Positions 4,606-60,800 of a stretch of 64,000 nt of DNA are shown one piece after another (position 1 is the first letter of the stretch; every line of letters begins with the position of its first letter). The stretch is from NCBI RefSeq assembly GCF_000003815.2, contig NC_049996.1, positions 13,427,297 through 13,491,296 on the forward strand, written 5' to 3'. The notes under the pieces are model-generated. The model made no database searches and had not been told where the DNA came from. It saw nothing but the letters and a program-made list of their open reading frames with translations. This stretch comes from Branchiostoma floridae. Taxonomy: Eukaryota; Chordata; Leptocardii; Amphioxiformes; Branchiostomatidae. A program made the position numbers and the translations under genes.

Positions 4606-7600
4606 CAAACTTTATTAACATTTACATAACAATACATTCACATAACAATCAGATAACATTATAATACATAAGTAGTTGTGATCAGACTGTATCACCTTAC
4701 AAGGCTATTTCTATACTATTATTTACCCTGTTCTTAAAATGCGCAAAGTTTGGTTTCATGTTTTTCACATAACATAGGTATATACAGTATTTCGCCAAGA
4801 GAATATAATATATAAGTGTGGTACTGGCAGTACGATGACAGCATACACCATACACAATCAAATTTTCATCCAGCACTATATCTTGGTTTTCGTAGCTCCT
4901 CCACCAAAGACAGAATTGCTTCCAAAAAATTTTAACCTCTTTGCAGTACACAAATAAATGTACTATGGTATGTTTTTCCTTACAGTTATTGCATCGATCG
5001 GTTTTTACTAGATTTGTTTTTTTTAACCAGCTGTTTGTAGGTAGGAAATGGTGAATTATCTTGTACTGAAAATATTGTAAATTGGTTTCTTTAGTGACAT
5101 TAAAGGCGGTAGTATAAACTTTCTCGATGTTGTCTTTGCCAATTTTTCGTATGATTTCGTTTTCTCTAGTGGGTGGTACAACTTGTTTTTCTATAAGGGT
5201 ATCGTATATCTGCTTACATGTTGTTGTGAGGGGATGGATTCTCTCCGTGTATTCAATGATAGTTTTAGAGGCGCACTTTTTTCCATTGTTTTTTATATTA
5301 TCTTTCCAATTTTTTGGTATTGCCGCTTTTATAGAATTGTAATTCAATATTTGTCTTGAATCCATGGTCAAACCATATAAATTGTGTAGGTCTTTGTTTG
5401 TAAGAAAAGATCCATCCCCGTACAACAAATCATTCAGAATGATAATTCCGGCATCTATCCAGATTTTGTAAAATATCGGTGCATTCTTTACTAAAATAAA
5501 TCTATTGTTCCACAAAACTTGCGAACATATTTGTCTGTGTGTTTTGGGTTCGTATCCTATCACTTCTTCCCATGCAACTAAAACATCTTTGTAAAATAGG
5601 GGCATGTCGTTAAGATCTAACTGAGAAGTAGCGTAATTGCATCGGAAAATCAAGAAACCTCCCCATCTTGCAAACAAGTGCTCTTTTTCTTTTGATGGGT
5701 CCATTACAAATCTTTTAATCCATATGGCTTTTAAGGCCTTGTTCATTACATTAAAATCGATCATTTTAAGTCCACCTTGACATTTTTTGCCAATCAGAGT
5801 TTTCATTTTTACTTTTGGAGGTTTCTCTCGCCAGATATACTTGAATATGTATTCGTTTACTTGTTTTACAAATTGGGGAGGGACATGCATGACTGAACAA
5901 ATATAGATCAACTTAGAGATGCCGATGGTTTTCACAATCAATATCCGACCAATCAAGGTCAAGTTTCGTTGTTTCCATATGCTGCACGCTTGTACCATTT
6001 TTGTATAATTCTTATCAAGGTCTTCCTTATAGCATCTATGTCTGTCATGGCCAAAGTGCGCGCCCAGTGCTTTAATGGGACCGTCAGGCCAACGGATAGG
6101 GAGTGGCTTATCTTGTCTATCTTTGTTTGAGCCTATCCACATAGCTTCAGTTTTTCCATAATTTAGATCAAGACCACTACAATCCTTAAAGAGGTTCAAC
6201 GTTTCTAACAGTTTCAGTGCAGAGGGTATATCTAGTAGTAGTGATGTCATGTCGTCTGCGTACATTGAGAGTTTTTGCATTCTACCGTACACTTGTAAAC
6301 CTTTTATGTTTATATCTGCTCTAACTGCTGAAGCTAACATTTCAATACAGATTATAAACAAGCTAGATGACAGTGGATCCCCCTGCCTTACACCTCTATG
6401 AACACTAAACCATGGAGATATATAGCCATTATTGAGCACACAGCTTGTTATATCAGTGTATAGCAATTTAACCCATTTGATCATGTTGTGTCCAAAGTTT
6501 ACAGTTTCTAGTACTTTTAGTATGAAGGAATGTTCGATACTATCATAAGCTTTTTTGAAGTCCAGAAACATCAACAATCCCGGTTTCTTCTTTTTATCGT
6601 AATAATCTATTGTGTCATAGATACGCCTAATGTTTGTCCCTATATATCTTTGTTTGACAAACCCTGTTTGGTCTTCGTGTATTAGGAAAGGGAGTAAACG
6701 TTCAATTCGTAGTGTAAGTGCTTTACTGACAATTTTATAATCTACATTTAATAGACTTATCGGTCGCCAATTGTCTAGATTACTTGTGTCTAACCCTTTC
6801 TTGGGAATTAGCCTTATTACTCCACGTCTTAGTGAGATGGGTAGTAAGTTATTGTGGTACGCATCATTAATTGTATTAAGAAGGTAATCTTTTAGTAAAT
6901 TCCAATACTTAATATAAAATTCTATCGTGATACCGTCACATCCTGGTGACTTGTTTTTATTTTTTGACATAGCTTGTAAAGCTTTTCTCAGTTCTACCTC
7001 TTTCATTTCACCATCACAACTGGTCTTTTGTTCAGTGTTTAACTTTTTAACGTCATCATTGTCTAAAAAATAAGTTGATTCCTTCATGTCTGGGTAAGAA
7101 GAGGTATATAGTTTTTTATAGTACTCAGCTTCTTCCAATAAAATTGTTTTAGGGTCTGTTGTTATTGATCCGTCTTCCAAAGTCAAAGACGAGATAGTCT
7201 TTTCTTTGTAGTTTCTTTTTTCCAGGTTGAAGAAGTATTTTGTACTCTTCTCTCCTTGTTCATTCCAATTGCATCTACTTCTAATGATAGCACCTTTAGT
7301 TTTGTGAGTTTGTATACTTTCTAACCTTTCTTTTGTTTCACAGATTAATTTTTGTTTTTCAGGATCATCAAATTCATCTGTCTCCTTCATCAAGGAGTTT
7401 AATTGTTCTTCTAATTCTTTCTCCTCATTTTTGCGACTGCGCGCTTTATTTTTAGAGTATTGAATACTAAGTGATCTTATTTCCATTTTAATCATCTCCC
7501 ATTGTATACCAGGCTGTTGGATATCTTTTAGTTTGTCCTTGATATTAGTGAGTAGATCTGTCATTTCTTTATCAAAAGTTTGATCCTCTAACAAAGAGTT

Positions 7601-10600
7601 GTTTAAACGCCAAAATCCTGGCCCTCTCTTTTGATATCTAGGCGACTTGACTGTCATTATTACCGCCCTGTGGTCAGGGACGGGCGCTACCTTAATGCTA
7701 CATTCACTTAAGTTTATTAAATTGTAAGGTGCAAACCAGTAATCTAGCCTACATTTTATATTTTCATTTTGCCAAGTGTATTGTCTAGTATTGGGGTTTT
7801 TTTCCCGCCATACATCAGCCAGATTAAAAGACTTTAATAGGCATTGCATTTCTTTGATTGCATAATTTTTGTCGTCAATGGGTCTTCCTCCTGTCTTGTC
7901 TAATTCTGTTAGGGAAATATTACAGTCACCGCCAATGAAAACTGTCCCACTAGCGTTTTCTTGAGCTAGCTTGTGAATTTCTTTGAAGAATTTCACTTGT
8001 TCTGTCCTTTTGTTTGGTGAATAAAGGTTAATTAAACTTACGACATTATCGTTTACTCTACCATTTACCATTATGTATCTACCGTCTTGATCAAGAAGTG
8101 TCTGTTCTAAGTCTATATCTGCTTCAGGGTTAAAGAGCATCATTACTCCTTTCCCGTGAGCTGTGCCATGGCTAAAAACTATTTTCCCGCCCCATTCATT
8201 AGCCCAAAGTTTTTCATTTTCTTTAGCCGAGAAAGATTCCTGTAAAAAGGCTATGTCTGTTTTCTGGTTATGTATCCATCTAAATATTTTTTGTCGTTTC
8301 AGTTTGTTATTTAAACCTCTAACATTTAAGGAGATAAAAGTTAATTTGGACGTTAGAGAGTTTGATGAAGACATGTTAAAAGAGTTATAACAAAAAAAAA
8401 TATCTAAGCATTAACAAGAGCATGACTTGATATGGATAGTAAAAACTAATACCGTACAGTCCTAGTTGTTGGCAGTCCCGCGATCAGAGATCACAAGTTT
8501 ATCATACCGTATGTGAGCCACTTGACCTCGTTCTCTGGCTGCCCGTAGTGCTGGTAGTAAGTCTTTCCTCTTTTGTCTGATCCTTTCCGAGTAGTCTTCA
8601 TTAATGTAGATCGATGTACCTTTCAGCAGTTTTGCGTGTCTTAATATGCTCTGTTTGTCCTTGAAGCGTGAGAACTTCACAACAATGGGGCGTGGTCGAT
8701 CTCCTGGTCTGCCATTACGATGAGCCCGTTCGATTTCTATTGCGTCGGTGTTCAGACGCAACTTGGTCTTCAGTACTTCTTTAACCTTGACTTCAGATTG
8801 TTCCCATGTCTCCTTCTTGTCGTCTTTGATCCCATCGAAGATAAGATTGTTCCTTCGTGACTGGTTCTCGATGTAGTCCACTTTGTTTACAATCTCAGTC
8901 ACTTCGTTGTTGTAGGTCAGGATGTCTTGTTCCAACTGTTTTATTTTGTCCACGTTCTTTCCACTTACCGTTTTCATGTCACCGAGCTCTCCTTGTGAGA
9001 AGTTCAGACTGTTTTTTAAATCCTGCATCTCTCTGACGAGATTATCCATCCTTTGATTGGTTGAATCTGTTATTATTTGTACAAATGAGCGGAAATTTTT
9101 TTCCTGTTGGTCCAGGAGATCTTTGTAGTAGATTTTTTGTTGTTCCAGCATCTCTTTCATAAAAGCTACACTAACGGGTACTTCCTCGTCCATGACCGCG
9201 TTAGTGTTTGTGTTTCTCTTTGGTGGCATGGTGGCGCTCAGGAGGTTGAACTAATCTAATTATCTCTCTCAAACTTGTCTCTAAGTGCAAAATACACAGT
9301 ACAGCCCTTTCTTGGTTCTATATAGTTCACAATTTCGTTAAATAAGTGGATTTTACCGGTTTGTTGGAGAGATTTCGTTTCTTCGGTGTAGTGGTCCTGG
9401 ATACGTTAATTGCACACACCGGCGTGCGTTGTCTGCACACGAACAAAGGACGCACTCTCCGCCCTCCCACCTATGCAGGTCTGTGATCCAAAATCCTGGA
9501 GAAACTGGTCCCGTCTCCCCAAAAATCTTCTTCGAAGTTGTACAAACTGTCTCTGCAACACTTCAACTCAAAAGTTCTCCTTTGGATGCGATAAATCACA
9601 TAAAAAACTCATTCTTTGGAACAACATACGGAGAGACGTTGAATACCTGGCTTCTACCGTAAGCGCCACCTACCGATTCATTTGTTATACATATGGATTT
9701 CAAACATCAACTGTGTCAGATAACAGGCCTCTACTATAATGAAACGCCACTGCAAGTAGGATGATATAGTCTTGTTTGTACATTTTTATATGTAGTTTCT
9801 TGTCGTTATATCAAACTTAATGTCAACTTAAGAAAACCATCGGTTCTCATTTCTACTCTTGTTAAAGGTGCTGCTCATTTGTTGTTATGTTATCGTTGTA
9901 TTTATCATTTTTTAAACACAATACAGGCCTAATGTTTTGTAAGGGTTCAGCCCACTGTAATTTAAAATAAAACGCGGGCAGTCAAAGAAAATTATTTTGA
10001 ACTAGAGTTCGGGGACCTCATACCTCCATGAAATATTTATTGCTTTCTTGTGGATGGTATGTATGTTTATAGTTGATTGTATTTGAGAGTGAAAGTTATA
10101 TATGTCCTAAGCAGACATAAATAAAACTACTGGGGGTTCCCCAAACAGCTGTCATAGAAATCACCTCACTATCTGCTTGCAGCTAAGCCCATTAACAAAC
10201 ACATAAAGCACGATGCTTGTTCCAATATATCTCAAATATAGGGGTGATTTCTGATATTATTACATCAATTATAACGACAGATACGGCTCCCAAAATCCCA
10301 TAGATTCGAGCTTTCATCACACCCCACCAACACAACAAGTATGAAACCAATCCATTCAGCCATTCTTGAGTAATCTTGTACACAGACAGAGACACATAAC
10401 ACACCCAACCGACACAACAAGTATGAAACCAATCCACCCAGCCGTTCTTGAGTAATCTTGTACACAGACAGCCAAAACTCGGGGTTCCCCAAACAGCTGT
10501 CATAGAAATGACCTCACTATCTGCTTGGAGCTAAGCCCATTAACAAGCACTTAAAGCACGATGCCTGTTCCAATATATTGCAATTATAGGGGTGATTTCT

Positions 10601-18562: not shown

Positions 18563-19922
18563 CCAGTTTCTACACACGGCAAATAAAAGTGAATCTAAAT
18601 TCATTTACAGGATGTAAGATAATGAAAGGATTACAAATAGGACACTTTAAATGAATGAATGACCTATTAGGAACGATAGTCATTATCCTATGTTGTGCAT
18701 CATTTTTTTTATACAAAGGCCCAACCGATTTGAATGTTTATTTGACATTCTTGGATCTAAAAAAAAAAACACTATAATATATCATAATTAGTCTGCCTTA
18801 ATAGGATCAGACTTGTTTTTCTCACAACATAATATATTTTCACATAAATTGCTATTATAATAATAATCGTATGTTCTGCAAGGCTGATGGTCTTTCTTAC
18901 GTTGGAAACTAGAATTAGTTGTCAGAATGAGATACATGTGTACATTTTTAAGCTCCTACTTAGGATCGTTATAAAGACTTTAATTTTTTTGTTGCATTGA
19001 TTTCTTTATTTGTAGTCTGCATTGTCTGGTTCCCGTGTAGAACAAAGAGACGTCATAGATTCGCTGGTGATGATTGGAACTTGAGAGCAGACAAAAGGAC
19101 AATCCTTAAACGGGCAATATTGCAAACTTTGAAAATACAGATAAGAAGACTCAGAAGTATAAATCCAAGGAACTGAATATGGCCGCTGGCTTGGGTATTT
19201 GCAAACATATTTTACAAATTGCTGGTGCATTTTGTAAACGATTTACTTGCAATATTAAAAAAAAATCATACATGGGTCGTAATGGTAGGTAATTAATAGC
19301 ACCAGATTAAATAACATGAACTGCGAAGCTTTATTTTCCTTTGGCCTTGAATTTTCATTTGCGATTTGCAGAAATATTCTGCAGACACCAAAAGCAGTGA
19401 CATACGTAGCTACCTTTCTTGTGATCATAACAGGAAAGTCTCTCTTTAATAATAAGATATATGGAAAATGTTATAACCCGCTTACGATCAAACATGACAT
19501 GTTAAGTATGCAATATAGTCTAGTCCAAACATGGAATAAGATTTGGAAGACATGAATGTCTTCATTATTTGCTGTTGCAGCACCATTGGTTCGATAATTC
19601 ACTTGTTAGAGGTTTTCCTTTCCTGTATATGCAAGAAAAAAAATCTGTGCCCAGGCTTTTCATTACTGATGTATGATCATTATACATAAATATGCTATGT
19701 TTGATATTTTCAAGTATCATAATGATTCTGCTACAAAAACCTAGATAATCTCTGATTAATGCTCATGCCGATAGGAAAATATTTCTAAGGAACCAAAAAG
19801 AAGTGGTCACAAATGAAGAAATCACTGGTAAATTCTTAACATTTGTTTTTCAAATGGTAGGTTGGCATTTTGATTCCATGGATATGTGTACCTAATAACA
19901 TATAGATTTCATTTTATTTCAG
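18563..19922. other. Upstream region of the SUEL-NHL receptor gene
   Basis: AT-rich, with no domain-bearing ORF. The plus-strand exon at 19,923 begins after an acceptor (TTTATTTCAG), so a non-coding first exon and the promoter should lie in or left of this stretch. I could not locate them. Confidence 0.4.
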
Positions 19923-22900
19923 CAGACACGATGAGCCAGGAAATCGAACAAGAAATCAATCCGATATACGTTACAAACCATGGGGAGTCAGATGGGTTGG
20001 AAAGCTCATTGCAAAATGAAAACAATCCAGATCCCAATTATGTAGCTGGCAATGAACCTGTACGTATGAGCAGCCGTACACGTCAGCCCGATACCACAAT
20101 TGACCATCATCATCATACTGCAGAAAATAGCGATATCCCCACAGGAGACACTGATATATATTCCGTATCCGATGGGAACAACACAGAAGAGTCTGCCATG
20201 TACACTGCCTCTGCCGAAAATGATGGAGAAGCTAATGATGTCGGACACATAGACGAAGAATCAATGTCATGGAAGAAGGCAGTACAGTTCCTGTCAACGT
20301 CAACACCAAAACAGGTGCTCACAGATCCCATCATGACACTGCAGATGATAGTGCTCATGGTGGTACCTGGCATGATGACCTCTCTGAAGGTATCGACATT
20401 GAACCATATGCGGTTTCAGATATGTTTGAAAATGAAACATACACAGCTGGAAAACCAGACTGTGGATCTACTGCACAGGATCACCACAAGATGCAGTCCT
20501 CAAATACGATGGGCGGAGCAAACGATGACTCTAAGAAAAACACTGGTGTAGACACGTACGGAGCAGACATTCCGCAACAAGCTTCAGATGATAACAGCCA
20601 TGACCCTGATGCTCACAGGCTTCGAAACCCCTTAGTCGCAAAAATATTTGGAGGTAAGATGGCTTAGGCCACAGCAAGTAAATTTTATGGATTTTATGGA
20701 AATTTTATCAGCGCAATCTGCAGAGCATGTCATCCATAAAATTTACTTGCTGTGGCCTTACGTTAACTTGTTGTGATTTTATGACATTATATAGACTTAG
20801 GTCTATGTGGACCTTGTTTTCATAAATTTCCTATTTGTAATAATCTCTTCATCTACCTTTCATGCATATATTCGCTCTATATACATTTTATTCTAACAAC
20901 GTGCAAGATGTTAGACTAGTGGGTGATTTCATCACTTAAAGTAAAATCTAGTCAATTCCTATTCCATTCTTTCATTGAAGTTGTATTAGTTTGTTTACTT
21001 CATCAAATAGCAATTCTTGTGTTTGTTTCAGGTAATATGGATATAATGTATGGGCTTTAGTTACTGCACTAGACATTATGCCAAACTGTTAGTCATGCAT
21101 GCACGGCCGTCCTCTATTATTGCGGCCACCGGCAAACAGTGCACCTCAATGTTATTAGGAAAATACCCCCTGGCACCCCTTGACCCCCACGTTCTTCGGG
21201 GGTTCTGTTGCCAGCTGTAAGGGAAACATCTATTGTTTTATTTATGTCGTGCCCACCTGAGAAAACCCATTTTCTTGATGCAAAATGCACCAGAAGTTGA
21301 ACAAATTTGGTGCCCTCGAACAAAAAAGTGTTGCAAATGTTCCAATGTCCGAATCAGGTATTCGAATTGCCAACCGTGCCACACGCACGATCGGCCCGTT
21401 CGAAATGGTTCGATTTACTCAAAGAAAGCCTGTGTGATACGCCTTTTGAATCTGTGCGATACGGGGGTTATGGCCCGGTCCGGAACACCCGTATCGAACG
21501 TTTTCGCGTCACAGGTATGACGAAACGTTGATTATCAAACAGACTGTTTTGCAGGGTATATTTATCGCTGGTTTGCTGCATTGGCGGTTTTCCTGATATT
21601 AAGCATCGTTGTGGGAGCGATCACCGCAGTATTCGTCAGAGGAGTCTACCACAACATCCAATACACTCAAACGGTAAGGTCAACAACACCCATTCTTCAA
21701 ATGATTTACGTATCAAGTAACTCTCAAAAAAATCAAAACAGACTAATGATAATGAAAGAAATTTATTGTAAATCTATGCTCAAACAAGCCAAGTACATGT
21801 CTTAGCGATAAGACACAATTAAGAAATGTGTTATATTTCTACATCTACAGAGACTAATATATGCAGATATGTACAGTATCAACCCCTTCTTCTCAAGACA
21901 GTTGTAAAGATATGAGCAGATGTAATCAATAATAAATGATTTATCTAGTTACATAAGGAATATTAATGTTTCCTTACTATTCATATAACGGACGTTATGG
22001 AAGAAATCTTATTTGCAATCCAAGAGAATGTTTCTTTCGATGGTGTATAAAGTACAGCCCACAATAAAGTGACACTCATCGTCTGTTAATGGTCATTAAT
22101 GGTCAGCTAACATTAATTGTGTTGCTGTTTTTTGTTTGTTCAGGCTAGCCCCATACAAAACATCAACATTTGCAGTACGTTCAGTGTACCGGAACTGACT
22201 CGTGCTCCTAAAGCTAACATCGGGAGCTCTGATGGTAATGGCCAACCTACCAGTGGCAGTATTAATGGTACAGACCCATCCAGTCTTGGCAGTAACCATG
22301 GTACCGAACCATCCAGCCTTGGGACCACTGATGGTACCAGCCCACCCATCCTTGAGGGTAACCGTGGTGACAAAGTACCCAACCCTGTAAGCATCAAAGG
22401 CATCAAACCAACAGTCCACATAGGTAAGTATTATTAAAATACAATAAGCGTTAGAAAAAAAAATCATAGCTATGAAATACATAATGCAAAAACTACTTAC
22501 ACAACTGGATATGTTTTTGAACAGTCCTTGGATAAACTTGGATACCAGGATGTCTAACTTTCATCAAAATATGAAAGACATGTGTTGTGTATGTGAATTA
22601 TCTGGAGGTTAACATTTTTTACAATGTTATTACAGTTTCTACCTTGTAACAAAAAAGCGTACTTACACGATATTTACTACAATGCTTATATTGTCTTCCA
22701 AAGTTGGATATTCGATAATTCCTCTTCAAACCCATTGATTTTTTATCTCGCATGTCCTTATATTTCGTTACATCTTCCACAGAGTTTCTAACTGGATTGC
22801 TACTACACGCCGATGTATGCATTAGCAGCACTCCAGTTAGAATCTCTGAGAAAGATGTCTGCCAGGCATCTACGCGTATGCAGATAAGAAACACTGGTTG

Positions 22901-25761
22901 TGAAAAAGAATTCTACAATGTCCTACATTTTACAAAGATGATGAAATTTGTTTAAGATATCTTCCAGTGTATAATTCAATTAACCTCTGTGGTCAAACAG
23001 GGTTCTAAGCATTCAAAATATGAACGATGCCTGAGACGGAATTTCATAAATAGATTCATAAACACTAAAGTTTCATTGAAGTTGTAATTATCTAATATTT
23101 CGCAAACTGTTAACATCACTTACAGCAGTTTGCTTTAAATAAGTTTGACGTTTGATGAAATGATGCTATCACCGATACAGAAAGAGCCTGCCAGAGAAAG
23201 ACATTGCGTTTGTCTTGTGCAGCAGACAGGCTGCTCGTGATCGACGGTGCTTTCTACGGACGGAGGACCAAGTGGGGCCGCTGCAGCTGTAAATTGTTCC
23301 GTCGCTGTAACACCAAGTGTCAAGGAAACTACAACAGGTAAAAACATTTGTATTCACACCCCTAGTGGCCCTCCGATTGCATTCATACCCTCCTACAAGT
23401 AATTGCCTCTATATTTTTTCTTAAGTCATGGTTTTTGTTTAAAGTCTGATGATCAACAGATCTCCCTCAGTATGGCAAGCGCAAAAGACCTAAAAATCGA
23501 CAATAGTGACGAATTTTAGGTGATAATAAAATAGTTACACTTGATCTGGTACAGTGGTCTACAATCTACGATTTTGGCTGATGACGTCATTAAATTATGA
23601 AACATCTACTAATATACTATACTTTATTCATGTAATAAATTAGCAATAATGTGGAAAAAAAATTAAAGATATATTGTTAGAACTGAACTTAATGTTTTTC
23701 GTCAAAAATACCTGTCAACAAAAACTTTTCAAACTGTTTAAAATTGGTACCAACTAAATTTTAAAAAAAGTCACCGAACTTTTTGGCTCTAGCGTAGGCC
23801 GTTCGACGTTATGCGACAAGTTGGTACAGGCCGCCAAAGCACCCCCCGCCCCGTCTGAATAGGATTAATCTGTGTACCATTGAAGCTTAGATATCTTCTA
23901 TCGAGATTTTCGAAAGATCGTCTTGTTTATGATCATGATTTGCACATATCTTTGCGTTTTGAACTTTCATCTGTCTCGGTGCATGGCATCTTTTCATATT
24001 ACCCTTAAGGTGTTCAAACAAGTCAATTCAGTAACAAGCTTTCAATTCAAATTAGTTTTAATGTGCCATTACTAACCTTGTATATGAAATTGTTTCTTGT
24101 AATAGCCCAACCTCCATCAGCCCCCATACCTCTGTAATGCGTAGATGTCAGGGCTTACAATCTTGCAGCGTACCGGCGATTAACCTTAACTTTGGAGACC
24201 CCTGTCCAAGTACAGAGAAGTACTTGGAGGTAGAATACCACTGCGAAGGTCAGCATACGTTTCTATTTTTTCCTATACGCGTAGGACTACGTAAAATGTT
24301 AAGGTAGTCCCATGAGGCCAGGTGGTAAATGTGTTACGACGCACGCGTGGGTGTCAGGAACTCAGGTAATATGTCAAAGTTGAAGGCCCTCAGACGTCAA
24401 ATGTCCGACGTCTCTATTATTGTTTATATTTGTGTAACAATGTTCGGAACGTAATGGCGCCTGCAAAATGCCCAGAGTTTCTGACACCCGCGCGTGTCTA
24501 CGCGCAGTATTGGTAGCCGCCTTACGCCTATAAGGTCGTCTATCATTGCCTGGATTCGGCCCACCACACAGAGCAAGTCGCACATGTTGAACTGTCACAT
24601 CGCTATCTCACAACAATGTCCCACATGTTGTACATCAGTGTAAAGCTAAAAAAAACGCTTGTTTCAAACATAGATGTTCATTCTTTAAACATTGCCTTGC
24701 GCGCGTACGGAAAACACTGCTAAGCACATGTATATTGGTAGCATGCGACTTATTACCCGAGGAGGTAATCAGTCCCGCATGATGCAACTACGCACGCGCG
24801 GAAACAAAATCCAACAATTCGTGTACAATTCTGGGAATTCTTTCCAAACGGACGTAGACGGGCCCTTGAAGCATCTCCAAAAAAAAGTATCTAATATGTA
24901 CAGTACTAATTGCTTTACTTTGTTTCACAAACAGAAATGAAAGATATGGTCACGTTCGGCGGGGCTGGAAAAGGTCCTGGTCAATTTCTGACTACAGGAG
25001 GACTGGCCGTGTCCTCGTCCAACGAGGTATTTGTGGCTGACGTGAAAAAGAAAAGAATCCAAGTCTTTAACATGAAGGGAATTTTCCTACGCAGTTTCTC
25101 CACAAGAAACATGAAACCACAGGACATCTCTATAGACAGCAACGATTCCCTATGGGTCGCAATGCACAGAAAACCCCCCAAGCAACCTTTTTATGAAAAT
25201 GCCGTCACTCAGTACAGCAAAGAGGGACATGTCCTTGCCACATTTAAGTGCAGTGGAAACTTTCTAATCTATGGGATTGCCATAGACAAGCTTTCCGACA
25301 AAATCATACTTGCAATGACACGCTATTCGGGTAGAAAACGGCACGCAGAGGCCGTGTGGTTAAGTGGTACTGAAACAACATGTAACATGAGCAGGTTTGG
25401 GTGGACAAAAGAGGGATATTTGCCACAGTATGTTACAGTTGACAAGAAAGGGAACATCTATATTGTTCATAAGGTAAACGATAATGTCTTAAAGTATGAT
25501 AAGAATGGTGTCTACCTTTCCCGTTTCGGTGGTCGAGGTAGTGAAGCTGGAAAATTGTTTTTCCCCTCGGGAATCTGTGTGGATAGTTTGGGTCGCATCA
25601 TTGTGGCTGATAGATGGAACAGTCGGTTGGAGATGTTCACACCTGATGGACGCCATATCCGTACTGCAGCCTATATGTCGAAACCAGAGCATATTGCTGT
25701 CGGTGTGGATGGGCAGCTTGTTGTGGCAAATAAGGATCACTTTGTAACCATATTTCTCTAG
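19923..25761 (+). CDS. Type II membrane receptor: Tyr-motif tail, TM, stalk, SUEL lectin, NHL propeller
   Basis: Six exons, all phase-consistent: 19,923-20,653 (ATG 19,931; ends phase 1), 21,555-21,673 (1 to 0), 22,144-22,423 (0 to 1), 23,181-23,337 (1 to 2), 24,106-24,248 (2 to 1), 24,935-25,761 (stop). Exon 1 is a hydrophilic tail of about 241 residues with NPIYV, NPDPNYVAG, SAMYTAS, IEPYAVSD and ENETYTAG. Exon 2 is the membrane segment (WFAALAVFLILSIVVGAI). Exon 3 is a Gly/Ser/Thr/Pro stalk with degenerate NGTDPSSLG repeats. Exons 4-5 form a rhamnose-binding Gal_Lectin domain (LRLSC, the YGR motif in GAFYGRRT, FGDPCPSTEKYLEVEYHC). Exon 6 is about six NHL repeats (FGGAGKGPGQF ... VADRWNSRLEMF). 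With no signal peptide and a tail before the membrane segment, the lectin and propeller should face outside. A one-base deletion-type frame change near 20,268 breaks exon 1; with that one base counted the total is divisible by three (about 749 residues). Confidence 0.85.
20255..20290 (+). other. Frame break inside the cytoplasmic-tail exon
   Basis: The first frame (DDVG-type acidic tail up to HIDEESM) and the next frame (EEGSTVPVN ... IEPYAVSD) are both tail-like, but they are offset by one base at about 20,268. No plausible short intron bridges them. This could be a sequencing/assembly error or a disabling mutation. Confidence 0.6.
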
Positions 25762-25885: not shown

Positions 25886-25891
25886 AATAAA
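25886..25891 (+). terminator. AATAAA polyadenylation signal of the SUEL-NHL gene
   Basis: AATAAA lies 125 bases after the stop codon and 20 bases before a genomic A-run (25,911-25,925). Confidence 0.75.
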
Positions 25892-32997: not shown

Positions 32998-35900
32998 TCA
33001 TTCCAGAGAAGCTTGACAGATAAAACCGTGCTTGCGAGTACAGCTGCTATCATCCCACATGGGATCACCAGTGCGACCAGCCCAGTAGTACCGAACGCAC
33101 AAGTTGAATTCCGGCAAATGAACCCACCTTTTGCCATTAGGCTCTCCTAGATTCCATCCCTGTAAAACACAATGGAGCAGTTGATAGTAAAAGCAATACA
33201 CCGTTGTTCTATAGCACAAAACCAAATCCAATTAATGGTATCCTTTTTAAAAGTCAAGACTGATCCAGCACAAATTAAAGGCAAACGATACCTAATGGTG
33301 ATAGAGTATATACTTATTTGGCTGGAAACAAAGTTTAACCAACTGCATCTGCGAAAGAATACGAGAAAATCAAGTCCCTCAATGTAAACCTTCAAAAGAG
33401 TGGTCTCATATTTTGCCAATTTCCCATTATGACTAAGATTCTTCCTTGAAAAACAAATTATATTTGATAACTGGAAACGTTTGAACAGGTATGTCTTGTT
33501 GTACTCACCTTGTAATGGCCCAATTTGGAACCATCTTCCCAAAGCCAGTGTCTCTTACGAAGAAAGAAGCCCCCCTTGTTCCTCAAGCCAATCCAAAAGT
33601 TGATGTTGTGGCCTTCCTTCTGGACAAGGTTCCTTAGAGCGAGGTCCAGCTCTTCTGTTTCAGGCATGGCTAGTCTCGCACCATCCTTCTTGCAGGTCTT
33701 TCTTGCAGTTTTGTAGGACAGTTTTCGGAGGTTAAGCCGGATACAGGTTCCGGCGAGGAGTTTGTATCCGACCTGGCGGCAGCCAATCCTGGAAGCTAAA
33801 ACAGTGGACAAAAATAAAATGCCAAAAGAATTTTCATTATTGCTATGAAGGTATTTACCCTTGCCGAGAAGGTTATGTAATGTGTAGCATTTGTACGTAC
33901 GTATGTATGTATGTATGTATGTATGTATGTATGTATGTATGTATTTTAGTATGTATGTATGTATGCATGCATGAATGAATGTATGTTTGTACGTACTATG
34001 TAGAAGACCAGCATAACTCAAGAACGCCTGAATGGATTGTATCGATTTGGTATGCTGGTAGGAAATTAGCTTTTAGGCCCCCTAGCAGTCTGTTATGGTA
34101 CTGCATCAGAACATTGTTTTGGTTTTGGTTTGATATCTCGAGTTCTGAACATGCTGCGGCCATGCTTTTTGATTGGTAGACATGTCTTTATGCCGAAGGT
34201 AAGTGTAGTTGGTTTTGACCCTCTAACGACTTGTTTTGGAACTGCAATTAAGTGTCAGAATTTGAAAGGGAATAACTTAACAAGGCGTTAACAGATTGCT
34301 ATGATTTTTGGTGTGTTGATAGTTTAAGTGATGGTTCATATAATGACATATTGATTCTGCAGATTTGTAAATAATTTGCATAATTAATCAGTAAACAGTG
34401 TAAACACGCTCAGTTCCATTATAGGGCCATTGCTACATTTGGCATTTGTAACTGAGAAGGAGAAGAATATTGATAGATATATAGTATACAGTATATCTAT
34501 AGTATATAGTATAAAATCAAGATGTTATTTGCATGATTTAAAAGAAAATACTATAATGCCATTGTGGTAAATGGCGGGAAATTCTTACTTGGTGCATTTA
34601 GAAGTTATGTACAGGTGAACATCATTGAACAATAATAATGTAAATGAGATCTCATTTGCTTAAATTATCAGAAAATGCGATAAAGCCCTCTTTCTTATCA
34701 TTCTTAAGATTGCGTACGTCTGTTGTCTGGTGGAGGAGAATTAAAACAGCAGTTGTAAAGGTTAGGGTCATTTGGCAAAGATATGGGGTCGTGGAAACTA
34801 TGTTACACTTTATTGCATATCAAAATGTATAGAATAGCAAAACAAATTGTACAAGTCATTTAGATAACCAGAAGAGTGATTTGTACCCTTAGCTAAGTTT
34901 GTTTGACTCACTTTTCCTGGTCGTTGACGTGTCTTGGTTCGTATTTCCAAGAATCTTGCTCCGTTTCATCACGCCGGTCGCGAACAAACACTGTGACAAA
35001 AAAACAACAACAACAACGCGATGTCATGTTTGTGATGAATACGAAAAGTGCAACCAAAATATGAAATCAACATTGCATGACGAGACTTGATAGAAAACAT
35101 AAGTATTAAGATTTTTCAAAGCATCTCAGCGAGATAGGATAATCACGTTAAGAATAAGAATAAGACTGAGAATGCACTGATCTAGAAAACACTTCGAAAG
35201 AAGAGCGGTCTTGTTACCTCTCTGTATGTGGTTATCATATCCATCAGGATGGTTGTCACGGCTTTCAGTTCGGTTGTCACGACAGTCCTGGTAGTTGTAA
35301 CGTTAGGCACGGGGGTTGTTCCGTCTTGTAGCAGAGTTGTCACGGCTGGGGCTGTGGTTTTTACGACAGGAAGGGTAGTTGTCATGTTTTCCAGTGAAGA
35401 CGTTGTGTCAAGTTCATGCCCGGTGACCCCAAAAGATAAGTTGGTTGTAAAAGTTTGGTTCGCCAAGTGCTAAGTAAAGGAAGTAAAGAAAATAGAACAA
35501 CTAGAATTAGTCAACAAAGGAAACGATTAATATTGTAGTAACAGAGGGTAATATGAAAGAATGTAGATATTATTCAAGTTTTCATTCCATGTTGTTTCAC
35601 AGCAATTGTCTCCACCACATCCTTATAGCCAGTCATTTTGTTAACTTTGTGGAATACCTTTTGTGTATGGCAGTTTTTAGACTACATTTTTTTAGATACG
35701 AGAGACCCAATTATATTTATGTAGACAGAAGGTGAGAAAGCACACCAAGGGCTAGCTGTGTAGTTGGAAAATAAGAGAGGAGACTGACCGGATACATTTT
35801 TGCTTTGTTCTCCTTCGGTGTACCAGTAAGGTAAATGTTGATAATAACTGCTGAAGCAAGCAAGGCTGCCGCTGCAACAGCAATGATGACGCCACGGAGT

Positions 35901-38900
35901 AGATATGGGCGGAGACTTGTGCAGAATGACCATGTCTGGCCTACGACAAATCAATGATTTGCACAGAGGTGAAGATTTTAGTGCAACCACGGTGCATTTT
36001 TGCAACGACATTGTGGTCATTTTAGCTGGTTTTATTGGGCGTTATCAATTACCGAATTACATAGAGCCCCATATGATTCACACCCACCTGCTTAGATTAT
36101 AAACATGGGATATATAATTAGATAATCCAGAACGTCATACGTGCAAATGCTGATTAATTAATGTGTTCATGAATTTAATATAATGCAATTTATTAATGGT
36201 AGTGATATTGGTTCATCATCATCATCCTTGCTAAAAATCAGTCACCATTTAATGAGGCGCGTCGTCATTGTTCTCCACACGGATATCAGTTAGTAAACAC
36301 ACAAAGGAAAATGTTAATGGGTACAACGCAATGAAGCCGATGGACAGTGCAGGGAGTAATACTGGTTTACCCTCATAACTTTTTAAAAAGCATTTTAAAC
36401 TATTTCAACTTAATTTGAATGAGGCATCCTGGTTTTTGTTGACGAGAACGTGCTGTAGACATGTTACAGATAAAGACTACGGTCATATGTTGCCTAGTAG
36501 CATATCTAGTCTTGCCCAGAAGTAAGGGGACTTAATGCTTGTCTGAGGATCTGCTAATTAGGGTAATGGTGAGCATGATTTGGGCGTGGATCGCAGTGCC
36601 CCTCTTCCCATGTATAGAAAAAAAAACACTCTGAAATTTATATGCACCTTTCTTGTTATCTTGTCGAAGTGCACCAGGTACGTATGTTGGGTTGTTTAGC
36701 ATGTCCGAACCGTCCTTTTGTACATCTGTTGATGAAGTAGTGTCTTCCTCCTCATCAGCTCGTTGTTCTTTGTCTGTAGCAGCCCGCTGTAGACTGTTGA
36801 TGTCATCTGAGTCGGAATTATGGTACACGTGACTGTCGGCGTCTTCATCATTATCATAGGGATTTGCCTCTTCTTTGCTCCATCTGGGAATTTCTGGCAG
36901 TTCTGTGCAGTCAAATAGGCAAAATGACAGTATAAAAGTCAATAAATCCACAAGACGTAAACAAACAAAAAATGTTGCCAGAAACAATGAAAGCTCCGTT
37001 ATCATCGAAAAATACGAGTATACACAACTTTATAGATATTATTCTTATTAATTTTAATGTTGATTTACATCTACTTAAATCTGAAAACTGTAACATCCAC
37101 ATATATGCGCAAGACATTCCTAGACCTTTTCTTCCTTTGCAATATCATGCTTATTCTTTGCCATATTTATTATCTTGCTTATCATATGAATAAGACCATA
37201 TCCGTTTTTTTTTTAAATCTAATGGGATTAAACGTAAAAAAAGAATGCTGGAACCTCATACACTACCAAAAATTTGCTCGTTTTGCTTACCCCATAGACA
37301 ATTCTTATATGAAGAAAATTATTCTTGCGAGAAGAAAATGTAGAATAAAATTCTAAGCTAAACAAGCAAAACAAGAAACTACCAAAAAATCTTAATTTTC
37401 TTATTCTTCTTTGGTGAAGAAAATTTTTCTCACACCTAAGAATTTTCTAGAACTTTAAGCAAAATCTTCTTGTTTGTTTCTTATGATGCAAGAAAAAAAT
37501 TCTAGAAATGCTTGCTTTTTTATAACTCTTAAGAAATACAAGAATTTTTGCTCTTGATGGAAGAAAAGTATTCTTCGTGTAAGAATATTAATCTCAAAAA
37601 TGTGTCAAAAATTCAAGCAAAAATTTGCTTGCCCCATGGACAAGCACGTTTTTCTAAGATTTCTTGGGGACAGAATAATTTTCTTCCTGAAAGATATATT
37701 TTCTGCAAGGAAGAAAAACAAGATACACAAAAAAAAAATCATTTTTGGTAGTGTACCCCGCGAATCATTAGTTTAAAAAAACAGCGAGGGTCTTTAGACA
37801 CATACGCAGACTTTGACTACGTGTTTCTATTGAAAAAAAAATCAAAGAATACATCTTATAATGAAACTAAGTGGTCTAGATGAAACTGGAGAAGCAATAA
37901 TCGCAAACATTCTTGTTTTGTTTTGCGTAGGGTTGTTGCAGACATGTGATTGAGTTTTTTTTTATTTATATGCAAGACACAAGCTGTGGAATACTCGAAA
38001 AGATAATATTTAGAAAACGAAATGATCTAAAATGCGTATGTTTTTTACTAGATAAAACAGATTTTCTTCTCTATGTCCTAATTATATCTCATTTGAAAGT
38101 AAATGTTAACTTGTAACTGTGGTGTCTCAGTTTTTTTTATTTATATGCAAGACACAAGCTGTGGAATACTCGAAAAGATAATATTCCGAAAACGAAATTG
38201 TCTAAAATGCGTATGTTTTTAATAAATAAAACAGATTTTCTTCTTTATGTCCCGTTCATATCTCATTTGAAAGTAAACGTTAACTTGTAACTGTGGTGAC
38301 TCTTCCTTAAGCGTTGCTATTTTGTGTCACTCCTTAAGAAATCGGGATGTTTCCCATGCAATTTATTCATATTTTTCGTTGAAAGTGAAACTTCACCAGT
38401 ATCTACATGAAAAAAAAAATAAATACATAAACTAAATGTGTTTCATGACAAAAATTTTAAACTCATTAAATAATTACCAAGCAAATTTTCATTTCGCTGC
38501 AAATAAAACTTTATATATAACAAACAATATTGATATCAAACAAACAACAAGAAAATTTGAAGAACACAGACCTCCCTAAATTAACTAGGAGAGTTTTAAC
38601 AAGGGTGAGTCAAGGGTAGAACCAGCCGTTCTATAAAGTTATATAAAGCTTTCAATATTCTAATGAGATGAACTTTAGAATGAAATAAAGACATTTAGTA
38701 CATGTATTCCCGTAGTTTTGAAATATATCCATTTGTTGTTCAAGTTTTTATAGAGTGATAAAGTTGGTTTCAAAATTATCGCACCCTTGCGTGCCTGTAC
38801 GGTCGACGCGCGTGCCCTGTACAGCGAGTAGACAGGGTAAGGAAACTGTACGTATGCAGCAGGTGTAAGTACGCGTGCATACAGTAACGTGGACCCCGCA

Positions 38901-46259: not shown

Positions 46260-48873
46260 CCCTTGTCCTGCGGGCCCGGTTATACAACCGGGTACACAAG
46301 CAGTGCCTGTGTGCGGGCCCGGTTATACAACCGGGTGGGTGTATTTCCGGTAAGAATGCGTCATACACCCGCGAACCGAGGGAAACCCGGAAGTAACTTG
46401 GCGGCATCTCCCGCCAAAAGGTTAAGGGTCATTTTTCCGATTGCGCAATCTATCCCGTGGTGCTTTGCGCGGCATAATTTATGTTAATGAGCAACATGGC
46501 GAACGTCGTCCGCTAGTTTGTTTACTTCTTTTGTTTGGGTGTTTCTGGCGGCAAATTTGTTATCTAAACGCCAAAATGAGTCGGTATTCGTTGAGACAAG
46601 TACACGAGGAGATTTTTTCGAACGATTCAGACCCAGAATATCCTACTTCGACCGAAGATTCTGATGAGAGCAGCAGCGAAGACGACGAGTCCCCACCTCG
46701 TTCTCCAAGCCCTGGCGGGGCTAGCGGAGAGGGACCCTCAGACGATCTTGATGAACTTGACACGGGCGACAACGGTGCCAATGGCCGTGGAAGAGCTCGG
46801 GGTACCGGCCGGGGACGTCGTGGACGAGCTCGAGGAGGTCGTGGACGTGGACGCGGCAGGGGAAGAGGCGCAAGTTCTGCAAGGGGGCGAGGCAGGCGTG
46901 GTCGCCCTGCAACCCGCGGACGTGGCGCTCGGGGACGCACAACTCCCGGTGGCACGCGCCGAACAGCTGTCTTGGATTCCCGTCTTGCCGATGAGAACTG
47001 GCAAGAGGTGGATGGTGACACTTTGCCCCAGCCTCCCCATCCTTTTACTGCAGAGCGGGGGTTTACTGACCAGGTAAATTAATCTTTATTTGTTATTTAT
47101 TTTGACACTTTTGCTATCTCTATCTACCATATGTGTAACGTTACTTCGTGTGATTCATTCGGTATTTGACATTTTTGGCTACTAAAGTGTATGTTATTAT
47201 TCTGAATACTATAAAAAAACGTGCCTTTAGATTTTCATTCTGTCTTTTGCTTTATATTTATATATTGATATTGATAATTCCCTCACATTGGTGGACTTTG
47301 CTACTATATCATTTCATTACCATTCTTGAACATACCTCGACATTGTACTTTTACTTCACAAGTGCACACAGACTTATTTGACTTATAAGATTATATTCTG
47401 TCATTCTTCAGGTCACATTGCCAGATGATCCTGTGGAATTGGACTTTTTAAACCTCATGTTCCCGGACCATCTATACAAAGTTCTCACAGAGCAGACTAA
47501 CAAATATGCGGAGGACTTCTTTGCCCAGAACCCTAAACCTGGCCTGCCCCCAAACTCACGTCCAAGGGACTGGCCGGAGAATGGAATTACCGAGCCAGAT
47601 ATGAAAGCATTTATGGCTTTGACTATAGCGATGGGTATCATTCACCAACAAGACATCAATGACTATTGGTCGGTGGATGAGGTGCAGGAAACACCCTTCT
47701 TCCGGTCAGTCATGTCGCGCGACAAGTTTCAGCTCATATTCAAGTTCATGCACCTCAATGACAACGATGAGTACAAGGCCCGTGGTGACCCAGAATACGA
47801 TCCGTTTCAGAAACTGGGGGTATTCTACCCAACTATCACACAGCAGTTTAAGTCAACATGGTCGCCCGGCAGAGAGATCTGCATCGACGAGGGCATGGTT
47901 CCCTTCAGGGGAAATGTGCATTTCCGAACATACAATCCAGACAAACCGGACAAGTATGGGCTCAAAGCTTACGAGCTGTGTGACTCAAGCAACAGCTACT
48001 GCTGTTGTTTTGAGCTGTATGGCGGGAAGGGCAAGGAACCATCAGAGAAGGGGCTGACGTATGACATTGTTATGCGACTAATGGAGCCTTACGTCGGGAC
48101 AGGCCGAACATTGTACTGCGACAACTACTACAGCTCGCCACAGCTATTCCTTGACCTTGCCGATGCCAACACCAACACCTGTGGCACGATGCGCAACAGA
48201 AAGGGCGTCCCAGACGCATTCAAAGACGCTTCAGTAACTACGCCCCAACAGAAGTTTTGCATGGCAAATGGACCCCTCCTTGCAGTGAAGTACAAGGACA
48301 GGAGGGATGTCAAGATGTTGACAACTGCACACAGTGCAAAGCTTGTCGGCACGAAGAAGAACAACCATCGTGGGGAAGAGAAAGTGAAGCCGGAGTGTAT
48401 CCATGAGTACAACCTGTCCATGGGTGCTGTAGACACCTCGGATCAGATGGTGGCCTACTTGAGCTTCAGAAGGCGCTCCCTAAAGTGGTGGAAGAAGGCT
48501 TTCTTCCACATTTACAGTCTTGGCATCTGTAATGCATTCATCCTGTACAAAGAACACAAAGAACAGCAAAGAGCACAGCAAAGAGCACAGCAAAGAGCAC
48601 TGCAAAGAGCAAACAACACGGATGGTGATGATGACGAGCAACAAGCAGAACCAAAGCCACTTCACAAGGTCTTCCGAAGAGAGATTGTGAAACAACTCAT
48701 CTCCACATCAGGATATGCGAAGCCACAGAGGAAAAGTCTGAGTGCAAGTGGCGCTGTCCTGCAACGGCTCACTGGTCGCCATTTCTTGGAGGATATAGTA
48801 AAGGATACGTACATCAATAACTGAGATTTTCAGAAAAATTTTTTTCGATATTAAAACAAGGGGTGAATTAATT
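46260..48873 (+). mobile_element. piggyBac element with intact 5' end, 3' end lost
   Basis: TTAA (46,256-46,259) is followed by the terminal CCCTTGTCCTGCGGG and two identical 23-bp palindromic modules (GCGGGCCCGGTT...CCGGG) at 46,270-46,292 and 46,313-46,335. The transposase gene follows. No inverted terminal repeat or TTAA end is found downstream. Instead, sequence duplicated from the left flank begins inside the last codons. The element is therefore probably immobile as it stands, though its transposase could act elsewhere. Confidence 0.8.
46576..48824 (+). CDS. piggyBac-type DDE transposase
   Basis: Two exons: 46,576-47,073 and 47,412-48,824. A 338-base intron (CAG|GTAAAT ... TTCTTCAG|GTC) is in frame between them; total about 636 residues. 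Exon 1 is an acidic Ser/Glu/Asp stretch followed by an Arg-Gly tract of about 70 residues (RGRGRGRG, GRRGRP). Exon 2 is the DDE_Tnp_1_7 domain (PDDPVELDFLNLMFP ... NDYWSVDE) with catalytic Asp325 (CIDEG), Asp403 (YCDNYYSS) and Asp507/Asp510 (VDTSDQM). The protein ends soon after RLTGRHFLED; the Cys-rich zinc domain that usually follows in piggyBac proteins is missing. All DDD residues are intact. The start is the ATG at 46,576, which has A at -3. Confidence 0.9.
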
Positions 48874-57831: not shown

Positions 57832-60800
57832 TTACAATGTATGTTTTATTTCTAAATTTTTTATGGAAAGTTCGAAAAAGCCGATCCAGTTCCTCAGCAG
57901 CACTCTTACAGAGCCACAGTCCAGAGAGACCACGGACTTTGTATCCATACCTTCTTCCACTTCATCAATAACATGAGTGGCGGTCACGGCGTTCCCGATC
58001 CCGTTGGATGCAGCGCACTGGTAGGTTCCGACAGCGTCGTGCTGGATGGACCTCAGCCTCAGCGTGCCGGCGACCTTGTGTGTAATGGTTTTATTACGAA
58101 GAAGAATAAAAAAAAACGTATCACATTTGCAGCCCAAGGGCTGAATTGCAGTTGATATTACAATATAATAAACTGGATCAGTATCTATCACCGGGAAATC
58201 TTTAAAAATGAAATACTTATAAAATCAGACTACTATGTACATATATATCTGTAACGTTATATACATAATATCAAGCAGCGAATGAATAATTGATAATATC
58301 AGTGGCGTACTATACTATACTAGAATTAGGGCATAGGGACATTTGAACAGCAGAGTAGGCGACCCATGCACGGAATGGCACTGACCTTGTCCTCGTCTGT
58401 GTTGGTGGGGAGGGTGCCGTTGATTCGGCTCCAGGTGTATGTGGCGGGAGGGTTGGCGGTGTCCACGGCACAGCTGAGGGTGACCGTGCTCCACTGGACG
58501 ACCTTGTCCACTGGGTCCCTGGAGATGGTGGCAGAGCTGGGACCATCTGGGACAGTACAGGCGTTCAACTGAGAATGAAGGGCATGCTAGAAAATTCCTT
58601 ATGTTATTTCTGGCACTCGTAAAGGTACAAGCACACTCTGGAGACTATAGAAATCAGTTGCCTGAAACTGAAGTGGATTTTTCATCCAAATCAATAACAT
58701 GCATGCATAGTGCTATTGGTGACATTTAAGAGTTATCTCTATTTTGCAACAAAGTTCTACTGTGACAAAAACTATGTACAACCTGTTAAACTTATATCAC
58801 GGCATGATCCTGTTAACAAATCCATCTCTGTTGGACTTTCAAACTTTAAACATCGTGACCATCAGGGTCAGACTTTAGCAGTGTAGTAGACATCCATCTT
58901 AGAATCTCAGCCTACTGTTCTGTGAAACCAACAACTTACCTTCTAATGCTGAAAATCGAAGCAAAGGTAAAAGGGAGGAAAATTAATCCTTCTGTGATTA
59001 ACTTACATTGGACCTGGACATTGACACTGTTGGTCAGTGCTGCAGGGTCGTCTCCTGGGAGCTGCGGAACTCCGTTGTCAGCTGTGCAGGTGTACTGGCC
59101 TGCTGCGGCTCTCTGGATGTTGGTGAGCGTCAGGGTTCCCGTGTTGGGATCTTGTGCGGCATCGGCGGGGAGGTTAGCACCTGTCCAGGTGTAGGTGGGT
59201 GCGGGGATGCCACCTGCCTGGCAAGTGAGCAACACCTCGGTGACACCTTCCTGCGCTATCAGGCCAGGGGTGGCTGTGACTGTCGTGTCCTCTGGTGCAA
59301 CTAGACAAGAAGGAAAAGATCAATGGTGCACACACACTAGATAGAGATGTTTAGTAAAGAAAACAAAACTCAGTTGTTATTCTAGCTGACAAGATGTCCT
59401 TGATTCTCAGTTACAGTATTTTACTTTAAATTCATCCCCTGAAAGAATAGGTTGCTGTTAAGGATGTGCGGCCCAACCATGAGGACTATGCCCAAAATGT
59501 TCCAATTTTTCGCCTTCTATAAAGCATGTTTGTCAGTAGCAATACAAAAATGTTCCAGAATACTTTTACATATTCATTTTCACCAGATTCCACTTTTATA
59601 TTACATGTACATTTTCCTCAACTCCTGGTAATAAAACATATAGCTTACACTGGACGATGAGGGTCCTCTCTTTCCTATCCGAGGTGCCATCGCTGAAGGT
59701 TGTAGAGAGCTGGTACTCTCCGGCATCGTCCTTGGTGACAGACAAGAGTCTCAGGCTGGCCTCTCCAACAGGCTCTACCCTGCCCTGTAGGTTAGAAAGT
59801 AAAAGTTCGAGTTGTTAGAAAGTTCAAATTTAAGTTGCCCCTTAGGGGTGGCGTTCATTTCAATTTCTGTAGCCCTCGGCCCACACATTTGTGAAAGCCA
59901 CTACAGAAGGGGGCTAGTCTGCTGGTGCTGATGTGCATTTAACTCCCATAATCTTTAGCATAAGAGCTGAACAGAGAAAGCAGTATGTACCATTTCTTAA
60001 GTCTTAAGTATGACTTAGCCAGCAATCAAATTTACAACCTATGGAATGGAATGCAAGGCGAACACTCTACCCACTCGGCCATTGCACTGGCCTGTAGGTG
60101 TGCAGGTTAACATGACCATAACGTCAGATTCTCCTGTCTTGATTTAAGCAAGATTCGTTGAAAGACACACGCTGTTACCTGACTTTAAGCAATATTTGAC
60201 AAATACTCGGTCAACTCCAAATACTGTGTGCAACCTACACGTGCCTTCGTTGCTACACATCACTACATGTTAGCGATACTTACCCGATAAGCAGCAAAGA
60301 CATCAAATGATCCATTATTGGCCTTGTTACCAATGCCACTCGATGGCATCTTTTTCCACACCTCAAAAAGCATACTGGCACCAGGTTCGGTTGTATACCC
60401 GTATTCCAGTAAAGCATCATCGCCAAGGTTTGTTCGTGTTGTGCCATCATCAGGAAGGGTGACTGAATTTTGAGCTGAAAAAGACGAAGATTTGATCAGC
60501 CATATCTCTCTACATGCCATATTCCTACTCCCTTTAATATCTTAAATTACATTCGTCTTACTGTTAAGGAACTAAAAGTGGTGACATTTGGTTAGGTGGT
60601 CCTTATCATGTGGAGGTGGTTACCCGTACAGGTTTGAGTGTGTAGACTCTAAACCTATAGGGATGAGGACAGTATTGAAGGGTGGGGTAGAGGGACTACA
60701 ATATAAATTGTTGGTACATTTTGGCAAAAACTATATTTCAAAGATAGTGAGGAGAATAAATCATCACTAATGAGTCGAGACTGATTTGCCATGTAAGGCT

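Follow-up and report, generated by a model that had tools for sequence, protein, structure and literature searches.

A lancelet gene family that places a SUEL lectin domain and an NHL propeller behind a tyrosine-rich tail and a single membrane segment

Does a run of six exons in the lancelet Branchiostoma floridae encode a single receptor bearing both a rhamnose-binding lectin (RBL) domain of the SUEL type and an NHL propeller, and if so is that receptor a sensor of sugars? The question is raised by a plus-strand locus in a 64,000-nucleotide stretch (the window) of contig NC_049996.1, C18 below, in which a first-pass annotation read a cytoplasmic tail, membrane segment, stalk, lectin and propeller in succession and proposed a lectin-type sensor. 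Lancelets are credited with exceptional domain shuffling, yet this reputation is also blamed, in the same source, on gene-prediction errors (PMC4967905). The domain order described here is real, unusual and repeated in the genome: the exon order, a conserved set of splice sites, a family of loci, loss of a glutamate that contacts sugar and variation on one face of the propeller are all directly evident.

All five introns have GT-AG ends, with phases 1, 0, 1, 2 and 1, and exons 2 to 6 are open throughout (508 codons), carrying the transmembrane (TM) segment, the stalk, the two halves of the SUEL domain (SUEL-a and SUEL-b) and the NHL domain in the order first read (Table 1). The claim of six phase-matched exons therefore holds for these five, but not for exon 1, which contains a frame break near 20264. 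A lectin acceptor at 23222 was dropped, as the frame upstream of it contains the missing Cys pair. A phase-compatible acceptor at 23180 extends the domain by ERACQRKTLRLSCA, lengthens the SUEL profile match from positions 9-80 (47.7 bits) to 1-80 (54.3 bits), improves the match to latrophilin-1 from E 7e-7 to 1e-9, and has an equivalent at all 15 family loci described below. Both domains named by the first-pass annotation are matched in Pfam, SUEL_Lectin (PF02140) at full length and above its cut-off (54.3 bits against 31.4) and NHL (PF01436) in four stretches with E 2.6e-21. The best solved SUEL match is 5h4s, an ‘L-rhamnose-binding lectin’ (E 6.3e-30) that we take to be SUL-I, and the closest relatives of the NHL exon in the PDB by sequence are Drosophila Thin (1.8e-40) and then TRIM71. 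The SUEL exon pair forms a symmetrical 1-1 cassette, with phase-1 introns on both sides and a phase-2 intron splitting the domain, the form expected had a type II NHL gene acquired it by exon shuffling.

When the genome (513 Mb, 431 contigs) was searched for relatives, homologues of exons 4 and 5, the two SUEL halves, were found together at 15 loci, the window being one; C18 has eleven of these, C1 two, and C13 and C7 one each. All 29 scored candidates for the tail exon match at E≤0.001 and lie at these loci, every one of which has a tail match, in the C7 case about 11 kb upstream. At 13 of the 15, window included, an NHL exon lies further downstream in the same orientation, among the 141 of 747 NHL candidates that were scored, and the other 12 are 53-58% identical to that of the window.

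This recurrence bears on the view that two adjacent genes, one for a SUEL membrane protein and one for an NHL protein, have been misread as one. Such errors have a lancelet precedent in a Lectin_C/fn2 fusion, a predicted chimera refuted by expressed sequence tags according to PMC4967905. Here the order is kept at 13 other loci: 12 have long NHL matches, and thus the whole order, and the thirteenth has a fragment. The donor of SUEL-b (GAAG|GT) occupies an identical codon position at 15/15 loci. In the window gene and 12 SUEL-linked paralogues it is joined in phase 1 by the NHL acceptor (CAG|A), a reading made with little upstream sequence at several loci (e.g. L051, L052 and L056-L058). The NHL exon has no initial Met at any of the 12 paralogues read. 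Since splice sites and phases are conserved over the family, a gene-prediction fusion is very unlikely; on the genome sequence, the SUEL and NHL exons most likely belong to one gene, as first claimed, and a chance origin of the exon order is excluded by its recurrence at other loci.

Beyond the 15 loci, the second SUEL half alone is matched at some 16 additional sites, and 102 kb in 11 regions around some of these gave no NHL match. None of the other NHL matches listed exceeds 44% identity to the window, four exceptions with no nearby SUEL match aside: C18:5.60M (75%, with a stop), 13.60M (56%), 6.89M (49%) and 10.92M (48%). The first is the closest NHL relative of the window, its identity extending over residues 2-179. 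The 6.89M exon (C18:6890860-6897000; L061, L069) is preceded by the end of a tail, a TM segment resembling that of the window gene, AFAVFLVLVAMLATGLLVGVYHNTQ, and an NGT repeat; no SUEL domain was recognised on reading L069, and 6.89M may therefore be a SUEL-less relative. In the 5.35 kb upstream of 13.60M (L068) no family parts were recognised.

The protein has a single strongly hydrophobic segment, LAVFLILSIVVGAITAVFV, where Kyte-Doolittle hydropathy peaks at 2.89, the next best value elsewhere being 1.31. A similar TM exon is present at L065, and less closely similar ones at L066 and L067. Basic residues (HRLRNPLVAK...R) precede the helix, the N-terminal side is the more basic as judged by eye, and the N-terminus read from the ATG at 19931 is acidic (MSQEIEQE), with no signal peptide visible by eye. 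These features suggest that the protein is probably type II, with its C-terminus outside. Of the proposed type II receptor with SUEL and NHL extracellular, the single membrane pass stands, as does the separation of both domains from the tail by the membrane, while the orientation itself is only probable. The stalk is built on a 33-bp (11-residue) repeat unit, and a similar repeat forms longer arrays at L050 and L065.

The frame break of the window copy lies in its tail exon. Exon 1 counts 723 nucleotides from its ATG (19931); frame 1 stays open as far as 20548, and frame 2, the sole frame that joins exon 2 in phase, is open from 20239. Codon usage points to frame 1 as far as about 20255 and to frame 2 beyond about 20261, and a paralogue tail used as query matches the window with residues 60-153 at 19958-20263 and with residues 155-270 at 20266-20610, the paralogue exon that both pieces match being open throughout. 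Elsewhere in the family, at 14 loci, the tail match falls within open frames of 228-833 codons; the piece at C13 begins with a TAA at the 5' end. A short intron within exon 1 was considered and rejected: 81 GT-AG pairs would permit it, yet coding potential continues without a gap, and among the 25 best candidates listed the donors score at most 6/9, whereas those of the five real introns reach 7-8. A DNA search of the assembly found no near-identical second copy of exon 1, the window holding the sole full one, and its other matches, 66-82% identical, are all at family loci. The break may be an assembly error, an allele or the mark of a pseudogene.

That the window copy is a recent pseudogene with a genuine tail break, making no protein or only a form begun at the ATG at 20269, we regard as possible but doubtful. 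The break itself, the missing second copy of exon 1 and the stop in the closest NHL relative at C18:5.60M all speak for it. Against these, 508 of 508 codons in exons 2 to 6 are open, the downstream ATG is in frame, assemblies also contain one-base errors, and the ratio of nonsynonymous to synonymous rates (dN/dS; Nei-Gojobori method, NG86) for the NHL exon is 0.28-0.50 against 16 relatives, two of which (L063, L064) are partial and one of which (L020) diverges at its end from the family sequence.

In composition the tail is tyrosine-rich, as first described, with NPIY, NYVAG, IYSVS and MYTAS in frame 1 and PYAVS, TYTAG and TYGAD in frame 2. The several N-x-x-Y and P-Y motifs attributed to it reduce in the window to one NPxY (NPIY) and one PY (EPY), while the four paralogue tails read, one of them partial, have 3-5 NPxY each. 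A Pfam scan of the L065 tail gave no match.

Whether the SUEL domain could bind sugar can be judged from mouse latrophilin-1, for which PMC2430599 describes Glu42, the residue following the first Cys (+1), and Lys120 as needed for sugar binding, and reports that the E42Q change weakens the dissociation constant (Kd) for L-rhamnose about 80-fold, from 1.78 to 141 mM. The window has Gln at this position; it keeps equivalents of Lys120 and Tyr63, and the Gly117 equivalent is Ser. Over the 15 family loci the +1 residue is Glu at four, Gln at nine and His at two (Gln or His in the window and 10 of its 14 relatives), and the Lys120 equivalent in loop 2 is kept at 15/15. Single-exon SUEL controls have Glu in 17/17 distinct readable sequences, drawn from 28 partly overlapping loci that were the best SUEL matches, with one off-frame row (L021) excluded. 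In a SUEL tree the 15 family sequences form one clade (support 99/98), in which a ten-member Gln/His clade (99/94) and two Glu-bearing loci group apart from the window (95/93), whose own fork has support 93/85. The simplest reading of these sequences would be that Glu was lost twice, in the window lineage and in the ancestor of the ten paralogues; a single loss with regain is also a possible reading.

The lectin-type sensor first proposed, taken as one that binds rhamnose or galactose, is not supported for the window copy, which has Gln where sugar binding requires Glu. A functional rhamnose/galactose receptor sensing microbial sugars would draw on the full-length, 54.3-bit SUEL match, the retained Lys and Tyr, and the four loci that keep Glu, among them 3.97M with Glu, Tyr, Gly and Lys together. 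We think it unlikely, given the Gln after the first Cys, the effect of E42Q at a residue that PMC2430599 calls necessary, the Ser in place of Gly117 and the unbroken Glu of the controls. The authors of that work postulate that receptor RBLs bind proteins (PMC2430599).

A single-sequence structure model of the NHL exon alone has 22 strands in propeller order (pLDDT, the predicted local confidence, 66; pTM, the predicted template-modelling score, 0.69), in keeping with the six-bladed propeller that we infer, and its first blade agrees with our assignment of loops. Among young paralogues many NHL pairs have dN/dS of 0.5-1.07, and for nine of them pooled the ratio of nonsynonymous to synonymous proportions (pN/pS) is 0.82. 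This divides unevenly, the top-face loops (DA, BC) having 1.14 (bootstrap interval 0.82-1.61), the bottom loops 0.41 and the remainder 0.78, and top-loop entropy in the nine together with L059 and L060 exceeds that of all 278 circular shifts. A control of nine NHL exons from a cluster on C17, taken from open frames of 531-623 codons, gave 1.12, 0.26 and 0.60 for top, bottom and rest, with entropy above all 281 shifts. Since these nine show an equally strong pattern, we rejected top-face diversification as a trait special to the SUEL-NHL family. The cluster itself, at C17:18.3-19.0M (L085-L093), is a large array of NHL genes, and the nine read have hypervariable top-face loops and nearly fixed bottom turns.

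Taken together, the genomic evidence points, with somewhat better than even confidence, to a family of 15 loci encoding single-pass type II receptors for adhesion or recognition that would bind through the propeller face, with SUEL serving as a protein-binding or spacer module. The chain would run from an acidic, tyrosine-rich tail through the TM helix, repeat stalk and SUEL domain to the NHL propeller. At the cell surface, the propeller, lying outside the cell, would recognise a partner through its loop-rich face, the stalk and SUEL domain would keep it clear of the membrane or attach to a second protein, and tail tyrosines might be phosphorylated, or bound by phosphotyrosine-binding (PTB) or other adaptor proteins, leading to signalling or internalisation. 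A more far-reaching version is only tentative: an expanding surface-receptor family in which variable recognition falls to the extracellular NHL propeller instead of the lectin, SUEL sugar binding was lost twice, as the tree suggests, and the domain kept as a protein-binding module, and an NPxY-rich tail serves signalling or uptake.

Several observations weigh against this receptor family. The confidence of the propeller model is just 66 in pLDDT, and its four sister models fall below 45. The interval on the top-loop ratio of 1.14 spans 1, the loop offsets were set only after a first view of the variability profile, and the top-face pattern, shared with one or more other expanded NHL families of the genome, is alone no demonstration of an extracellular ligand. 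The window copy could, from its tail break, be a pseudogene, and other members are damaged: C18:4.00M, the fourteenth locus, has an NHL fragment of only 62 residues, the C13 tail has a stop at its start, and the C7 NHL end leaves the family sequence. At C18:3.97M no NHL exon was seen among the 141 of 747 candidates scored.

Table 1. Features of the SUEL-NHL gene, in window coordinates
Feature	Position	Strand	Remarks
Whole gene	19923-25761	+	C18:13447219-13453057
Exon coordinates	19931-20653, 21555-21673, 22144-22423, 23181-23337, 24106-24248, 24935-25761	+	
Exon 1, cytoplasmic tail	19923-20653	+	ATG at 19931; phase-1 donor at 20654; acceptor AG at 19921-19922
Frame break within exon 1	20254-20266	+	Codon-usage switch; adjacent matches to consecutive parts of a paralogue tail
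Candidate downstream start, in-frame ATG past the frame break	20269-20271	+	Shorter tail possible, 128 codons of exon 1; from sequence only
Exon 2, transmembrane segment	21555-21673	+	Phase 1 in, phase 0 out
Exon 3, Gly/Ser/Thr stalk	22144-22423	+	11-residue repeats, one NGT sequon; phase 1 out
Exon 4, SUEL first half	23181-23337	+	5' end corrected; phase 2 out
Exon 5, SUEL second half	24106-24248	+	Phase 1 out
Exon 6, entire NHL propeller and stop codon	24935-25761	+	
Putative AATAAA polyadenylation-type signal, 3' of gene	25886-25891	+	Read from sequence

Intron 1 contains a perfect 27-bp inverted repeat (window 20666-20758), possibly a small mobile element. Elsewhere in the window, a probable second type II lectin gene (32998-37029, minus strand) has an NPTY tail, a TM segment, a Thr-rich stalk and C-type lectin exons; despite this same layout its tail has no homology to that of the SUEL-NHL gene (best E 1.6). 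The window also holds an open frame of 1237 codons that encodes endonuclease and reverse transcriptase domains, of a long interspersed nuclear element (LINE) type (4700-8410, minus), a 480-codon open frame matching DDE_Tnp_1_7 with E 4e-80 (47382-48821, plus), presumably a PiggyBac-type transposase, and an open frame that resembles an immunoglobulin (Ig) domain by motif (58939-59319, minus), Ig matches in Pfam being among those of the pooled frames.

The architecture has partial counterparts in known systems. Teneurins, described in PMC6428715 as type II single-pass proteins with an extracellular NHL propeller, provide a precedent that makes this part of the arrangement less unusual than first claimed. 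The likeness extends as far as the present protein is type II, which is probable, but here the NHL sequence is TRIM/Thin-like, SUEL is present, TEN_NHL reaches only 15.9 bits (E 0.0067, under the cut-off of 27.1) and the Pfam scan shows no EGF or YD domains. The RBL receptors Latrophilin and EVA-1 likewise carry SUEL on a membrane protein, often with sugar-contact residues lost (PMC2430599), but in contrast to Latrophilin (ADGRL) the present protein is single-pass and probably type II, its gene ends after NHL, and Olfactomedin, GAIN and seven-transmembrane (7TM) domains were not found by Pfam. With TRIM-NHL proteins (TRIM2/3/71, Brat, Thin) it shares the propeller, Thin and TRIM71 being its nearest solved relatives; it differs in having TM and SUEL segments, and no RING, B-box or coiled coil was found by Pfam in the exon 1 pieces and exons 2-6. 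The sea urchin and fish SUEL-type lectins (5h4s, CSL3) have the same fold and Cys pattern, whereas the window domain is single, intron-split and membrane-anchored, with Glu replaced by Gln. The nine C17 NHL genes have the variable propeller face in common with the window family. We found no publication on the SUEL-NHL repeat combination or on this family in the open-access literature, which tests such absence weakly.

In the dispute over lancelet domain shuffling the family provides a case argued on genomic sequence only, with about 15 copies, one order, one splice-site set and one specific tail. Its paralogues with open tails offer material for testing what an extracellular TRIM-like NHL propeller binds, and natural Glu and Gln versions of one SUEL domain are available within it. 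If the tentative view of the propeller as the variable recognition surface were true, the family would amount to an animal innate-recognition system based on NHL propellers.

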